Assembly: GCF_004777465.1 (NCBI RefSeq)
Contig: NZ_CP038462.1
Location: 3,162,001 to 3,226,000, forward strand
DNA length: 64,000 bases
Reading direction: 5' to 3'
DNA from: Nocardioides daphniae
Lineage (GTDB): Bacteria > Actinomycetota > Actinomycetes > Propionibacteriales > Nocardioidaceae
The position numbers and the translations under genes were made by a program. Below are positions 16,535 through 22,931 of the stretch, piece after piece. The notes below the pieces were generated by a model, which was given only the letters and a program-made list of their open reading frames with translations, searched no databases and was not told the origin of the DNA. Each line of letters begins with the position of its first letter. Position 1 is the stretch's first letter.

Positions 16535-17720
16535 TCAGGGCAGCGGGTCCATGCCGTGCAGGGGGAAGACCTCCATCCGCGTGGCGTGGATCGCGCGGTC
16601 GAGCCAGGTCTCCGGGTCGTAGCCGTCACGCCAGTCGCGGTAGGCCGGCACCCGGCCGTCGGTCATCCGGAAGGGCACGCTCTCGCCGAGCTTCGAGGCG
16701 ACGTAGTCGCGCCAGGTCGCGGGGGTGGCGGCGTGCGGGTCGATGGGTTGGCCGGACAGGATCGCCAGCAGGTGGGTCCAGGCGCGGGGGACGACCGACG
16801 AGATGGAGTAGCCGCCGCCACCAGTCGCCACCCACTTGCCCTCGGTGAGCTCGTGGGCGAGGTCGTGCAACGCCTCGTACGCCGCTCGTTGGCCGTCGAC
16901 GCTGAGCATGAGGTGGGTGAGCGGGTCCTCCATGTGCGAGTCGCAGCCGTGCTGGGTGACCAGGACCTGCGGCTGGAACTCGCGCAGCAACGGCGGTACG
17001 ACGGCGTGGAAGGCCCGGAGCCAGCCGCGTCGGCGGTGCCCGGCGGGAGGGCGACGTTGACCGCGCTGCCCTCGGCGCCCGGACCGCCGGTGTCGGAGGG
17101 GAAGCCGGTGCCGGGGAAGAGCATCTGCCCGGTCTCGTGCAGGGAGATGGTGAGGACGCGCGGGTCGTCCCAGAAGACCTTCTCGACCCCGTCGCCGTGG
17201 TGGGCGTCGACGTCGACGTAGGCGATGCGCTCGACGCCCTGCTCCAGCAGCCAGGTGATGCCGACGGCGACGTCGTTGTAGATGCAGAAGCCGCTGGCGC
17301 GGTCGGGCATGGCGTGGTGGAGGCCGCCGGCGATGTTGGCGCTGTGCAACGACTCGCCGCTGTGCACCTGGCGGAAGGCCTCGACGCTCGCGCCGACCAC
17401 GTGGGCGGAGGCGTGGTGCATGTCGAGGAAGACCGGGTTGTCGTCGGTGCCGAGGCCGTGGCGGGGTCGGTCAGGCCGTGGCCGGTGCCGACGCGCTGGA
17501 CCGCCTCGATGAGCGACTCGGAGTGGACCTTCGCGATCAGCTCGAGGTCGGCCATCGGGGCGGGCACCAGCTGGAGGCCGCCGTCGACCAGGCCGAACTC
17601 CTCGGCCAGTCGCATGGTGAGGTCGACCCGGATGGGCGCCATCGGGTGCTCAGGACCGAAGTTGTACTCCGTCAGCGACGTGTCGTAGACGACAGTCGCC
17701 GGGCCGTGACACTCCACCAT
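16535..17720 (-). CDS. acuC: Acetoin utilization protein AcuC / histone-deacetylase-family hydrolase (two indels)
   Basis: Zinc-dependent amidohydrolase of the class I HDAC fold; bacterial members deacetylate acetyl-CoA synthetase or other small-molecule or protein acetyl groups. Landmarks in order: EYNFGPEHPMAPIR, DMHHASAHVVGAS, GLHHAMPDRASGFCIYND, the zinc-site VDVDAHHGDGVE, SLHETG with FPGTG, VTQHGCDSHMEDPL and GGGGY. The frame breaks near 17462 (one C missing; restored DPAHGLGTDDNPVFLDM) and near 17023 (one base missing; restored GTADAAWLRAFHAVVPPLL). The start is the ATG at 17720. It separates proC from the HTH gene, which are neighbours in mycobacteria. Confidence 0.88.
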
Positions 17721-17806
17721 GGGTGGGACGGTACTCGCTGGATGTGCTCTCCATCTCACCGTCCTCCGATTCGGTCACTGGGCGGTGGGCACGGTGCGGC
17801 GAGCGG

Positions 17807-18699: not shown

Positions 18700-18784
18700 T
18701 TCTCCACAACCAGCCGTGGACGCGGGCCCATCCCGGTGCTGATTTCCCTACGCTCCCGAACAGTCACCTCGGGAAAGGCCCTCC

Positions 18785-19290
18785 ATGCGTCGACGTACGT
18801 CCACCCTCCGCCCCCTCCTGTCCGCCGGGCTCCTCTCGCTCGCCCTCCTGTTGACGGGGTGTGCCAAGGACGAGCCGAAGCCGAAGTTCGAGGAGCCTGC
18901 GGCCTCGCCGACGCCGACTCCGGTCGAGGAGACGGCTGAGGAGTTTCTCGAGCGCTGGGCACGCCTCGACAGGGAGATGCAGAACACCGGGGAGACGGAG
19001 GAGTACCGGGCGATCACGCCGGGCTGCAAGGCATGCATCGCTTATGCCGATCGCGTCGACAAGATCTACGCAGCGGGCGGCGAAATCGTTGCTGAGGGCA
19101 AGACGATCCAAGGATCGAGCGCTCTCGGCACAAGCCAAGTACTCGTTTCAGCTCGGATCGGACCACCCAGTACCGAGAAAGCTCCGGATCCCCAACCAGG
19201 TCCATGAAGGGAGGGGAGAGCCGGTACGTCGTGACGCTCGAGAAGCGGCGGCAGGGCTTCGTCCTCACCGACATCAAGGAACAAGGATGA
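18785..19290 (+). CDS. Lipoprotein, copy 1 of duplicated cassette (DUF6318-like; frameshifted)
   Basis: Begins with a twin-arginine-rich lipoprotein signal (MRRRTSTLRPLLSAGLLS, then LLLTGC), so it is exported and lipid-anchored at about residue 26. A Pro/Thr/Glu-rich linker follows, then a globular part with EEFLERWARLDREMQNTG, ITPGCKACIAYADRV (CxxC pair) and IYAAGG. I think this resembles DUF6318, an uncharacterised actinobacterial lipoprotein family. The frame breaks near 19158 (one base missing after VLVSA). The restored tail (RTTQYRESSGSP, RYVVTLEKRRQGFVLTDI) aligns with copy 2 and ends at 19290, overlapping the next gene by ATGA. The function is unknown. Confidence 0.75.
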
Positions 19291-20162
19291 ACCGCTGGGC
19301 TTTCGTCATCTGCGTGCTGCTTCTCGGGGTCCTCAGCGTTGCTGGCCCAGCGTCAGCTGCCGCCCCTCCCCCGTGCGCGGACGACACAGGCCTCGATGAG
19401 GCAGAAATGTCCTGCGAGAAGCCGGTGACGCCAGAAGAAGCGCGTCAGTACATCGAAGAACACGGGAGCGGCCCCCAGGCCACTCACGTCTACAGGACCG
19501 TCGCCCAATGCACACCCACCAGTTCCGACAGCGGGGGTGGTTGCACAGTGCTGCAGTGCCCCAACGGCGAGCCCGGCTCGCTCTACTCGCTTGAAGAGTC
19601 CCCCATCCAGGCCGACCCACGGATCTGGACGCACATCGCGTTCGTCTGCCTCGAATCCGCCGACGAGCTCCAGACCATCTCCGCCGCCGACGTCGCCCGC
19701 GAGTTCAAACGACTCACCTGGCCCGCCGCCCGCATGACCATCCAGCCACCCGACGGCGAAACCCTGGTCAACCTGCCCACCATCTTCTTCACCAACGACA
19801 CCAGCACACAGACCCAGACCGTCACCCTGCTCGGCCAGACCGTCGAGATCGAAGCCACCCCCGCCGAATGGACCTGGCACTGGGCCACCCCCGGCGACGA
19901 CGGCACCCCCGACGACCGACAACCCTTCACCACCGCCGACCCCGGCTCACCCCACCCCAACGCCACCGTCACCCACGCCTACACCCGCGCCGACGCCACC
20001 GTCAGACACGACTCGACGTCACCTACACCGGACAGTTCCGCGTCAACAACGGCCCCTGGGAAGACATCCCGAGACCCACACCGTCAACGGCGACCCCCAG
20101 AACCTCCGCGTCCTCGAAGCACGCCCACCCTCGTTCGTGACACCCCAACCAGCTCGCCATGA
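19287..20162 (+). CDS. Secreted protein with PKD-like C-terminal region, copy 1 (three one-base losses)
   Basis: Signal peptide MNRWAFVICVLLLGVLSVAG with cleavage near PASA/A, then a region with six cysteines that are also present in copy 2, then a beta-rich C-terminal part (EWTWHWATPGDDG, PHPNATVTHAYTRADATV, LDVTYTGQFRVNNGPW) resembling PKD or Ig-like sandwiches. Compared with copy 2 it lacks one C at about 20009 (AGACACG), 20072 (ATCCCGAG) and 20130 (CGCCCACC). The three losses add to a full codon, so the original stop frame is regained and the protein ends TLVRDTPTSSP. It is translationally coupled to the lipoprotein upstream. The function is unknown. Confidence 0.72.
   Translation: MNRWAFVICVLLLGVLSVAGPASAAAPPPCADDTGLDEAEMSCEKPVTPEEARQYIEEHGSGPQATHVYRTVAQCTPTSSDSGGGCTVLQCPNGEPGSLYSLEESPIQADPRIWTHIAFVCLESADELQTISAADVAREFKRLTWPAARMTIQPPDGETLVNLPTIFFTNDTSTQTQTVTLLGQTVEIEATPAEWTWHWATPGDDGTPDDRQPFTTADPGSPHPNATVTHAYTRADATVRHDSTSPTPDSSASTTAPGKTSRDPHRQRRPPEPPRPRSTPTLVRDTPTSSP
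19625..20141 (+). repeat. Near-identical 0.5-kb segment, copy 1
   Basis: Matches 21022-21530. Five substitutions occur in the first 90 bp. From about 19712 to 20135 I see no substitutions, only indels (three single C losses here, a 2-bp loss and a GGC difference in the other copy). It encodes the C-terminal two thirds of the secreted protein. Confidence 0.88.
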
Positions 20163-20183
20163 AGACATCTCGAAAGGCCTTTC

Positions 20184-20693
20184 ATGCGTCGACGAAACGC
20201 CACGCTCCGTCCCCTGCTCTGTGCCGGGCTCCTCTCGCTCACCCTGCTGTTGACGGGGTGCGCCGAGGACGAGCCGAAGCCGAAGTTCGAGGAGCCTGCA
20301 GCCTCCCCGACGCCTAGTCCGGTCGAGGAGACGGGAGGAGTTCATTCAAGCGGTGGGCGCTTCTCGAGAAGGAGATGCAGAACACCGGGAGACCGAGGAG
20401 TACCGGGCGATCCCACGCCGGGTTGCAAGGCGTGCGTCACGTTGGCCGATCGCGTGGATGCGATCTATGGAGCGGGCGGCTACATCAAGGCGGGAGGCCG
20501 CACGGTGGTCTCGACCCAGCCGAGCGGCGCGAATGAGCACCACGTCATCGTGACCATCAAACCCACGACCTATGTGGAAACCACCGGTGGCCCGGAACAG
20601 TCCATGGCAGGAGGAACGAGCGAGTACTTGGTCACGTTGAAGGAACGAGAGTCCGGATATGTCCTAACTGACTACGTCAAGATCGCATCATGA
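20184..20693 (+). CDS. Lipoprotein, copy 2 of duplicated cassette (DUF6318-like; scrambled middle)
   Basis: Same signal as copy 1 (MRRRNATLRPLLCAGLLS, LLLTGC lipobox) and the same Pro/Glu-rich linker. Between about 20330 and 20430 the frame wanders. Aligned with copy 1, bases are lost after GAGACGG (about 20333), an off-frame change occurs near 20348, a G is missing in ACCGGGAG (about 20390) and the frame is off by two or one at ATCCCACG (about 20412). Restored, it would read about EEFIQRWALLEKEMQNTGETEEYRAI. The frame then continues correctly with TPGCKACVTLADRVDAIYGAGG to SGYVLTDYVKIAS. The 3' part is visibly less GC-rich than the neighbourhood. The function is unknown. Confidence 0.7.
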   Translation: MRRRNATLRPLLCAGLLSLTLLLTGCAEDEPKPKFEEPAASPTPSPVEETGGVHSSGGRFSRRRCRTPGDRGVPGDPTPGCKACVTLADRVDAIYGAGGYIKAGGRTVVSTQPSGANEHHVIVTIKPTTYVETTGGPEQSMAGGTSEYLVTLKERESGYVLTDYVKIAS

Positions 20694-21536
20694 CGCGCCT
20701 GATCGGTGCGGGTCTCATGCTGCTATTCGCTTTCGTTGCCATCCCTGGCACCGCTCGGGCAGACAACCCATGCCCTGTTGCCGGAGACCTGGGCGAGGTT
20801 GGCGCCGATTGCGAGACCCCCATCTCTAAAGCCGAGGCACGGGCACGCATTAGCCAGAAGGGAAGTGGTCCTGCCGCGACCCACGTGTACAGAGCCGTGC
20901 CTCAGTGCAACCCGACAACGATCCGCGAGGACGGCAGTTGCTCGTTCATTCCTTGCACGGGTGCCGAGCCTGGGTTTCGGCACTCCTTGGAGGAATCCCC
21001 CATCAACGCTGACCCGAGGGTCTGGACGCGCATCGCGTTCGTCTGCCTCGAATCCGCCGACGAGCTGCAAACCATCTCCGCCGCCGACGTAGCCCGCGAG
21101 TTCAAACGCCTCACCTGGCCCGCCGCCCGCATGACCATCCAGCCACCCGACGGCGAAACCCTGGTCAACCTGCCCACCATCTTCTTCACCAACGACACCA
21201 GCACACAGACCCAGACCGTCACCCTGCTCGGCCAGACCGTCGAGATCGAAGCCACCCCCGCCGAATGGACCTGGCACTGGGCCACCCCCGGCGACGACGG
21301 CACCCCCGACGACCGACAACCCTTCACCACCGCCGACCCCGGCTCACCCCACCCCAACGCCACCGTCCCACGCCTACACCCGCGCCGACGCCACCGTCAG
21401 ACCACGACTCGACGTCACCTACACCGGACAGTTCCGCGTCAACAACCCCTGGGAAGACATCCCCGAGACCCACACCGTCAACGGCGACCCCCAGAACCTC
21501 CGCGTCCTCGAAGCACGCCCCACCCTCGTGCGCTGA
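20690..21536 (+). CDS. Secreted protein with PKD-like C-terminal region, copy 2 (two-base loss)
   Basis: Signal peptide MTRLIGAGLMLLFAFVAIPG, cleavage near ARA/D, then six cysteines matching those of copy 1 (NPC, DC, QC, SC, PC, VC). Shared anchors are KGSGPAATHVYRAVPQC and SLEESPINADPRVW. After IAFVCLESADELQ it is almost identical to copy 1. The frame breaks at about 21366, where copy 1 has GTCACCCACGCC and this copy GTCCCACGCC (AC lost). In the restored frame it ends EARPTLVR at the TGA at 21534-21536. The ATG overlaps the lipoprotein stop (ATGA). Without correction the frame runs on to 21634 with meaningless Arg/Pro-rich sequence. Confidence 0.72.
21022..21530 (+). repeat. Near-identical 0.5-kb segment, copy 2
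   Basis: Matches 19625-20141, offset by about 1397 bp. The identity ends just before the stop: copy 1 reads CTCGTTCGTGAC and this copy CTCGTGCGCTGA. Confidence 0.88.
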
Positions 21537-21560: not shown

Positions 21561-22931
21561 TCAGGCGCAGGGGTCAGGCGCGGGGGGTGAGCCGTACGGG
21601 AGCGCGCCGACCTCGACGGTCCTGCCACCGCTGACCAGGAAGAGCTGGCCGTGGGGTCCGGTCCACAGGTGGTCGGGCGAATGGCTGGGCCTGACCCCCG
21701 GTCCGGCCGCCGGGTCGGGCACGACGTCGTACCGCCAACGGCCGTCGGTCTTGGCCCGGTGGTGTCGTCGGCACAACGGCGCGAGGTTGTCGGGCGTGGT
21801 GCCCGGACCTGACGGATCGTCGGGATCCCAGGGCACGACGTGGTCGAGGTCGCCGGACCGCGCATCACGACCGCAGAACGGGAAGACGCAACCGCGGTGC
21901 CGCAGCACCACCTGCCGACGCATCCGTGGCGGCGGATCGTGCCGCGGACTCCACGACGCATCGGCGAGGTCGACCACCGGAGTCACCGTCACCCGCGTGA
22001 CGCCCAGCCATGCCTTCAACATTTCAGTCGTGACCGGGCCGAACCGCTCGACCTCAGCGATCGCCGCGTCGTCCGACCCGCCACCCGCGGCCAGCGTCGC
22101 CAGGTCCGCCAGCGAGGCGTGGACGTACAGCTTGAGTGCCTGCCTCGGTCCGCCGCCGGTCTTGGACGCGGCAGCGCCCTCCGCCGCGAACCCGAACGCG
22201 AGCTGGTCAGCACCTTCGCGGGCCAGCGACACCAATGCCTTCACCCGCCGCGCCCCGACCGCGTCGTCGTCGCCCGCCGCGGCCAGGGCGTCGGCGTCGG
22301 TGTTGATCCGGTCCATCACCTCACCCAGAGCGACGGTGTCACCGACCGCCCGCAGTTCGGAGGTCCCCGCCCAGCCCCGTGGATGGGTCAGCTGCACGTC
22401 CCACCGCGCACGCTCAGCGGCTTCTTTCTCCTTCTGGCCCGCCGGATCCACCCGCGCCACCGCGAGCGCGATCAGCCGGTCCAACGCCGCCGCCCCGATC
22501 GAGCCAGCAGCGCCGATCAGCTGCCGGTCGACCCATCGCGCCGATTCCGGCGACAACGACCGCGTCGCGGTGGCGATCCGCCGCGCCTTCCACACCGCGA
22601 CGTCGAGGGCCCGCACCTGGTCCCACAACCGCGGCAACCGGTGCGCCAGGTCCAGCACGTCAGCGAGCATCGTCTGCGCCGACGCCGGCGAGACCCGCAA
22701 TGCACCCGCCAGCGGCTCGGCCGTGAAGGCCGCGACCCCTGGCGTACCGTCGCCGCCGGGGAACTCGTCAGCCGAGAGCACCCCGCCCTCACCCACCGCA
22801 GGGTGGGCGTAGGCCCACCGCAGCACCCACTCCAGCTGCTGCACCTCGACCAGCGCGACCAGGTCGCGGTGCTCGGCGACGGCCGCGAGCATCGAGCGCT
22901 CGTCGAGGTCGTCTGCGGTGGTGGCTTCCAT
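21561..22931 (-). CDS. DUF222 / HNH endonuclease domain protein (13E12-repeat type)
   Basis: A 456-residue protein of the actinobacterial DUF222-HNH family, multi-copy in many genomes and related to the mycobacterial 13E12 repeat proteins. The helical DUF222 region covers roughly residues 1-330. The C-terminal HNH nuclease has CVFPFCGRDARSGDLDHVVPWD, then TPDNLAPLCRRHHRAKT, with two CxxC-like zinc ligands and the catalytic histidine. The biological role is not established; members are thought to move or convert between loci. It lies convergent with the duplicated cassette (25-bp gap) and divergent from the S66 peptidase. Confidence 0.9.
   Translation of the reverse strand: MEATTADDLDERSMLAAVAEHRDLVALVEVQQLEWVLRWAYAHPAVGEGGVLSADEFPGGDGTPGVAAFTAEPLAGALRVSPASAQTMLADVLDLAHRLPRLWDQVRALDVAVWKARRIATATRSLSPESARWVDRQLIGAAGSIGAAALDRLIALAVARVDPAGQKEKEAAERARWDVQLTHPRGWAGTSELRAVGDTVALGEVMDRINTDADALAAAGDDDAVGARRVKALVSLAREGADQLAFGFAAEGAAASKTGGGPRQALKLYVHASLADLATLAAGGGSDDAAIAEVERFGPVTTEMLKAWLGVTRVTVTPVVDLADASWSPRHDPPPRMRRQVVLRHRGCVFPFCGRDARSGDLDHVVPWDPDDPSGPGTTPDNLAPLCRRHHRAKTDGRWRYDVVPDPAAGPGVRPSHSPDHLWTGPHGQLFLVSGGRTVEVGALPYGSPPAPDPCA

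Follow-up and report, generated by a model that had tools for sequence, protein, structure and literature searches.

A 64,000-nucleotide stretch of the Nocardioides daphniae chromosome (contig NZ_CP038462.1, positions 3,162,001 to 3,226,000), hereafter the window, carries at 18785-21536 two head-to-tail units, each made of a gene for a lipoprotein with a CxxC motif (LP) and a gene for a secreted protein (Sec). Comparison across the genus shows that the two genes are paired genus-wide and that conserved ends enclose a variable core which, as judged from the alignments, has been replaced at the same chromosomal loci. The reading favoured here, with a probability of roughly 0.4, is that LP and Sec act at the cell surface as a cognate pair that is polymorphic, encoded by a bicistronic and translationally coupled cassette. 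Sec would be a secreted effector or ligand and LP its tethered antidote or receptor.

The host assembly consists of one contig of 3,558,816 bases. In both units the LP stop and the Sec start overlap as ATGA (19287-19290 and 20690-20693), and direct repeats link the units at a spacing of 1393-1399. The tandem arrangement, the coupling and the duplication of the whole gene pair rather than of one gene had been noticed in a preliminary description of this DNA and are all borne out. The lipobox LLLTGC and the motif GCKAC are present in both LPs. Further copies of Sec elsewhere in the genome, which the preliminary description had left to be looked for, were not found; the two window copies are the only ones. 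The features of the locus are the following.

18703..18754, plus strand: promoter region of unit 1, with TCCACA at 18703-18708 (DnaA-box-like core) and TACGCT at 18749-18754, 46 nt from start to start
18768..18778, plus strand: LP1 leader and likely ribosome-binding site, CTCGGGAAAGG; of 138 upstream stretches, 104 have the leader motif close to the start of LP
18785..19290, plus strand: LP1 gene, with a frame break in its last part; about 18785-18935 encodes the signal and linker; fold taken from the relative P0122
19025-19027 and 19034-19036, plus strand: the GCKAC cysteines of LP1
19066..19605, plus strand: unit 1 variable core, covering most of the LP1 domain together with the signal peptide and N-domain of Sec1
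19287..20140, plus strand: Sec1 gene, ATG at 19287, sharing ATGA with the end of LP1; frame interrupted within the C-half
from about 19606, plus strand: conserved C-half of Sec1 (PKD); PKD fold taken from the relative P0003
20184..20693, plus strand: LP2 gene, frame broken inside
20465..21002, plus strand: unit 2 variable core, corresponding to 19066-19605 when shifted by the repeat spacing
20690..21536, plus strand: Sec2 gene, sharing ATGA with the end of LP2; frame interrupted within the C-half; stop at 21534-21536

All four genes are thus frame-broken. These breaks probably reflect indel or assembly errors, since a deacetylase-like gene on the minus strand at 16535-17759 is also broken over several frames. 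Frame shifts were excluded as the source of the pattern of conserved ends and variable core because intact relatives display the same pattern.

The mosaic is apparent from the window itself. In 60-nt windows, the two units are 75-93% identical at 18766-19065, 47-58% at 19066-19605 and 88-100% at 19606-20145. The shared 3' half that had been reported is therefore real but amounts to half of the mosaic: the 5' end is shared as well, and the divergent block spans the gene junction. The contiguous core comprises the LP domain, the Sec signal and the Sec N-domain. It was examined in the genus set, i.e. 137 usable regions around Sec matches holding 143 Sec genes. One locus with an over-long start (L085) was excluded from the mosaic, co-variation, unpaired-LP-position, selection and syntenic analyses. 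The pairs used for identities, fourfold sites and syntenic comparisons share genomes and are not independent. Within genomes (28 pairs), mean protein identity is 0.67 for the LP signal, 0.53 for the LP linker, 0.31 for the LP domain, 0.28 for the Sec signal, 0.25 for Sec N and 0.76 for Sec C; between genomes the respective means are 0.37, 0.32, 0.23, 0.24, 0.17 and 0.47. Fourfold sites were compared in 14 paralogue pairs chosen from the 28, mostly those with the most similar Sec C. Identical sites number 223/247 in the LP signal, 218/274 in the LP linker, 135/341 in the LP domain, 23/70 in the Sec signal, 91/219 in Sec N and 1129/1262 in Sec C, so that identity ranges over 0.80-0.90 in the ends and 0.33-0.42 in the core. 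As synonymous sites share the pattern, selection on amino acids alone cannot produce the mosaic.

The same discontinuity is observed between species. In 221 syntenic comparisons whose flanks align on both sides, the core aligned over less than 20% of its length in 145, over 20-80% in 62 and over 80% or more in 14. In 191 of these comparisons at least 80% of the first 170 nt of LP aligned, and in 131 the same held for the C end of Sec. Nine pairs chosen from the close pairs were inspected more closely: counted from the LP start, alignment in eight of them ends around +178 to +310 and restarts around +633 to +931, and the ninth shares its core.

The two genes go together across the genus. A relative of Sec (P0003) is present in 133 of 147 genomes of the genus, and LP lies directly upstream of 143/143 Sec genes. 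The two genes overlap by four bases in 121 cases and are offset by -1 in ten; the other 12 offsets are +1 (five), -8 (three), -28 (two), 0 (one) and +20 (one). An LP match at E 1.7e-24 or better was obtained in 131 of the 133 Sec-positive genomes, the remaining two (G069, G075) having Sec at contig ends. Among the 14 Sec-negative genomes, 13 have no LP match better than 3.9e-8 and the fourteenth (G100) has an LP at a contig end. Such pairing supports the earlier suggestion that the products work together at the cell surface, where they would be in physical contact.

Outside the genus, Sec was detected in 94 of 120 genomes and 22 of 26 genera of the family search. LP stands beside it in all 20 of the best loci (L185-L204; six of the genus, 14 of other genera). 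In named genomes, LP is upstream of 43 of 46 Sec matches; among the three exceptions, a contig start truncates one, and LP and Sec share a single reading frame in two. Those single open frames (L273:2305-3780 of Nocardioides sp. B-3 and L280:1855-3426 of Nocardioides sp. TF02-7) are either natural fusions or the result of an indel. Taken from the LP side, Sec adjoins LP in 26 of the 30 best class-wide DUF6318 loci. At the level of the phylum, 23 of 396 genomes match Sec. Among the 24 best loci of that search (L205-L225, L227-L229), LP is beside Sec in 10 and not in 14. At least three of these 14 (L207, L215, L223) are cut by the contig start, another (L217) has LP fragments further upstream, and in most the similarity is confined to the PKD part. 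Outside the class, the more distant PKD proteins for the most part have no LP. The possibility that Sec is widely found without its lipoprotein neighbour, raised beforehand as an objection, is thus not what the genomes display. LP-Sec pairs also occur in Kribbella, Oerskovia, Arthrobacter, Luteimicrobium and an Actinomyces, and Sec-like matches were found on one Arthrobacter plasmid and on one unannotated faecal 'Bacteriophage sp.' contig. In the plasmid (Arthrobacter sp. NZ_AP024658.1, L306) a DUF6318 gene precedes the Sec-like gene; since this pair is plasmid-borne, LP-Sec cassettes may travel. Three LP-Sec pairs lie in one 5.5-kb contig of Nocardioides sp. RYN_194 (L278). Several draft contigs start or end near a Sec gene (G058, G040, G081, G050, G075, G135); near-identical copy ends may have broken these assemblies, and Sec copy numbers are perhaps too low. 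As regards the search methods, a single-sequence scan of genome contigs returned no relative and an alignment-based query did find relatives. A homologue search with the lipoprotein gave two matches, one of them the window's own protein.

The lipoprotein had been described as DUF6318-like. DUF6318 (PF19843) is matched at E <= 0.01 by 79 of 115 aligned LP sequences; window LP1 scores 16.4 bits, below the Pfam gathering cut-off of 23.8 bits, and the LP2 reading is not among the matches. On these grounds the window LP is DUF6318-related by sequence and is not called a member. The genome of N. daphniae holds no DUF6318 match over the cut-off; one further weak match below it (G000:C1:796948-797202, L001; E 0.0061) is not accompanied by a Sec copy. 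The structure predicted for the close relative P0122 is an alpha+beta cone of the NTF2-like fold. A lipobox start was set by script in 138 of 143 LPs, and CxxC is then present in 138/138. The five pairs left aside are L171 and L124 (cut by contig ends), the second copy of L041, L131 and L135. In the P0122 prediction the CxxC (residues 82-85) is located at the start of a helix (83-97).

For Sec, a PKD/Ig-like C-terminal region and six conserved cysteines had been announced. The C-half of the close relative P0003 is predicted to adopt a PKD fold and 81 of 123 Sec relatives have a PKD match in Pfam at E <= 0.01; the window readings themselves have none (PF00801/PF18911) at E <= 1. The six cysteines are present in the N-region of both Sec1 and Sec2 but do not extend to the genus, in which the count varies from 2 to 8 and is exactly six in 40 of 138 proteins; recurring cysteines are kept in Sec N. 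Foldseek returned nothing for Sec at E <= 0.001. No consistent NCBIfam family emerged, the best being LppK in 7 of 115 LPs, with two single matches otherwise. Neither protein matched a characterised family of unrelated role, the other objection raised beforehand. One candidate interaction was dropped, namely that LP binds the C-terminal Gly of Sec. It was modelled on ARC6 and PDV2, where a C-terminal Gly is bound; the last residue of Sec varies (R 36, Y 35, G 22 of 137), and a literature search on the idea gave nothing.

Supernumerary LPs make the pair asymmetrical. In the 137 genus regions, nine unpaired LPs of at least 50 bits were found and no Sec without LP. Eight of the nine are directly downstream of Sec (one truncated) and one is upstream of a pair. 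LP is also alone in four of the 30 best class-wide DUF6318 loci. The domain of one extra LP (L075) is 68% identical to that of the paired LP of another species (L153). By analogy, these extra LPs are like orphan immunity genes. In Vibrio cholerae effector-immunity loci, orphan immunity genes stay after displacement of the effector (PMC5361080). NTF2-fold immunity proteins and one lipoprotein immunity family are likewise mentioned in another study (PMC3482391). It is this asymmetry between LP and Sec, together with the orphan and NTF2 precedents, that favours the effector-or-ligand role for Sec and the antidote-or-receptor role for a tethered LP.

Selection on the core was estimated in ten pairs chosen from the close pairs. 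The ratio of nonsynonymous to synonymous substitution rates (dN/dS) is 0.07-0.26 for the LP domain, 0.04-0.27 for Sec N and 0.08-0.43 for Sec C; the low values in the core indicate constraint, i.e. purifying selection. In the same pairs dS, estimated without codon-bias correction, is 0.71-3.28 for the core versus 0.33-0.76 for Sec C. This looks like the persistence of old core alleles under balancing selection, with ends homogenised by recombination. Distances in the LP domain and in Sec N are correlated once Sec C is removed (partial r 0.53, 0/300 permutations); the other partial correlations are 0.31 (LP domain and Sec C) and 0.11 (Sec N and Sec C). As weaker support, among the units whose nearest neighbours by LP domain and by Sec C differ, 44 have an LP-domain identity of 0.5 or more; in these, Sec N goes with the LP domain 19 times and with Sec C 5 times.

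A putative regulatory element precedes the LP gene. TCCACA is found within -150..-31 of LP in 122 of 136 units, 64 of them as TTNTCCACA, compared with a single occurrence within -300..-181, 491 of 18,586 background windows and 45 of 730 other genes of the same loci. Where a TAnnnT box is present as well (108 units), it lies 44-47 nt away in all but one, i.e. in 107, a figure for which there is no shuffled control. In the window, unit 1 carries the element (18703 and 18749) and unit 2 does not. A table in PMC4285127 gives TTGTCCACA as the high-affinity DnaA box for both Streptomyces coelicolor and Mycobacterium tuberculosis. The resemblance suggests that DnaA might act at the LP promoter.

The genes around the pair offered no functional clue over the 137 loci. 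The commonest neighbour clusters (LysM-like, LexA-like, NrdR-like and ribonucleotide-reductase-like, named by eye) occur at 25-28 of 137 loci each. An HNH/DUF222-like gene, also named by eye, lies just 3' of the window pair at 21561-22931, and similar genes near other pairs form clusters of 14 and 9 loci.

Under the favoured reading of a polymorphic cognate pair, the first gene would yield a membrane-tethered NTF2-like LP and the second a Sec with a short cysteine-bearing N-domain followed by the conserved PKD C-half. The LP domain would bind the N-domain of its own Sec, their alleles being matched, and recombination in the conserved ends would swap the core as a single piece. Exchange in one piece requires that the interacting halves lie side by side across the gene junction. 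Sec would act as an antagonistic effector or as a recognition ligand, its PKD half serving in delivery or attachment, and LP would be the tethered antidote or receptor. Since the variable domain is N-terminal, the partner gene would be upstream, in mirror image of the polymorphic toxin layout. This assignment of roles is the most likely one, and its toxin step could be wrong.

Several observations weigh against this reading. Co-variation is imperfect: the nearest unit agrees between LP domain and Sec N in 50 of 137 cases and between Sec N and Sec C in 44 of 137, and among 100 units with differing LP-domain and Sec-C neighbours Sec N sides with the LP domain in 24 and with Sec C in 18. Linkage alone can account for LP domain and Sec N varying together. 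Scans with Pfam, NCBIfam and PADLOC, in which Sec N was not searched alone, recognised neither a toxin domain nor a known effector domain in Sec. Finally, LP alleles belong to one fold family with an invariant CxxC, unlike most polymorphic toxins; with the recurring Sec N cysteines, this makes the alleles variants of one domain rather than unrelated domains.

Among the alternatives, the one that survives best, although unlikely, is diversification of a surface antigen. LP and Sec would form one exposed complex, such as an adhesin or envelope structure, whose core varies against phages or predators, and would not be antagonists. Surface location, discrete alleles, conserved ends and tandem copies agree with it, but the low core dN/dS within allele lineages in the ten chosen pairs gives no sign of a rapid residue-level arms race and the Sec-less extra LPs are left unexplained. 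A dedicated foldase or anchor with its client is a weaker proposal and quite improbable. LP would fold, oxidise or tether its own Sec by means of CxxC, and co-divergence would arise from the need to fit. The universal CxxC at a helix start and a cysteine-bearing Sec always accompanied by LP in the genus set are in line with this; yet the 20 of 138 Sec proteins with only two cysteines still have an LP, and neither old divergent core alleles at syntenic loci nor lone LPs are accounted for. Signalling or kin recognition of the agr/comQXP type is no more convincing. The core would define a specificity group, Sec N the signal and LP a surface receptor or processor, with a layout of the same kind, namely a hypervariable core over gene junctions and conserved ends, as described for those loci in PMC6834553 and PMC4408185; nevertheless, the 22 largest neighbour clusters listed over the 137 loci include neither a kinase nor a response regulator, as judged by eye from sequence starts. 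Least probable of all is a plain duplication in which the middle of the pair has changed faster because it is weakly constrained, for even though the tandem duplication is real and core residues are poorly conserved across the genus, weak protein constraint cannot give synonymous-site identities of 0.4 versus 0.9 within the same genes, and the higher dS of the core (codon bias uncontrolled) and the abrupt alignment breaks at syntenic loci also oppose it.

The widest claim is a doubtful one. It holds that Nocardioidaceae and some other Actinomycetes have in this cassette a self/non-self system not described before, in which the N-domain of a PKD effector would be matched allele by allele to an upstream NTF2-like LP. 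The halves would be exchanged as a cassette via the conserved ends, displaced LPs would provide orphan protection and the DnaA-box-like element would set expression. The presence of the pair in most genomes of the genus and old discrete alleles swapped at the same loci point to balancing selection by cell-cell action or recognition. The pair offers a two-protein system for testing strain recognition or competition in Gram-positive bacteria, and DUF6318 gains its first genetic context.

The open-access literature, which mostly leaves out subscription journals, yielded no paper on DUF6318, on a Nocardioides lipoprotein with a PKD domain, or on contact-dependent systems, immunity proteins and lipoproteins together in Nocardioides; open-access matches for a Nocardioides hypervariable lipoprotein were apparently on other subjects. 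The LP shares its predicted fold with the intermembrane-space domain of the plastid division proteins ARC6 and PARC6 at 9-12% identity, a likeness that says nothing on function. With DUF6318 it shares the matches of most relatives and the annotation of the Arthrobacter plasmid copy, but window LP1 falls below the cut-off and the family has no function in Pfam. PKD domains differ in that the window Sec lacks a Pfam match and that the Sec N-domain lies outside PKD. The agr and comQXP systems resemble the pair by discrete groups in addition to the layout mentioned above, the agr hypervariable region running from agrB to agrC according to PMC6834553; unlike them, the LP-Sec pair has no kinase or regulator gene and both of its products are exported. 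Polymorphic toxins and effector-immunity modules differ from the pair by the C-terminal toxin and downstream immunity gene, whereas here the variable domain is N-terminal and LP upstream. They differ further since LP-Sec alleles remain within one fold family, since no toxin domain is recognised in Sec and since the partner is a lipoprotein, exceptional among immunity proteins according to PMC3482391. PMC3482391 and PMC5361080 nonetheless describe the same organization: a variable domain adjoins the gene of its presumed partner, the rest of the long protein is conserved, replacement is modular, additional partner genes accompany complete pairs, and immunity proteins of NTF2 fold exist. The LP-Sec pair suggests that polymorphic cassettes can also take the mirror-image form, in which the N-terminal domain is the variable one.

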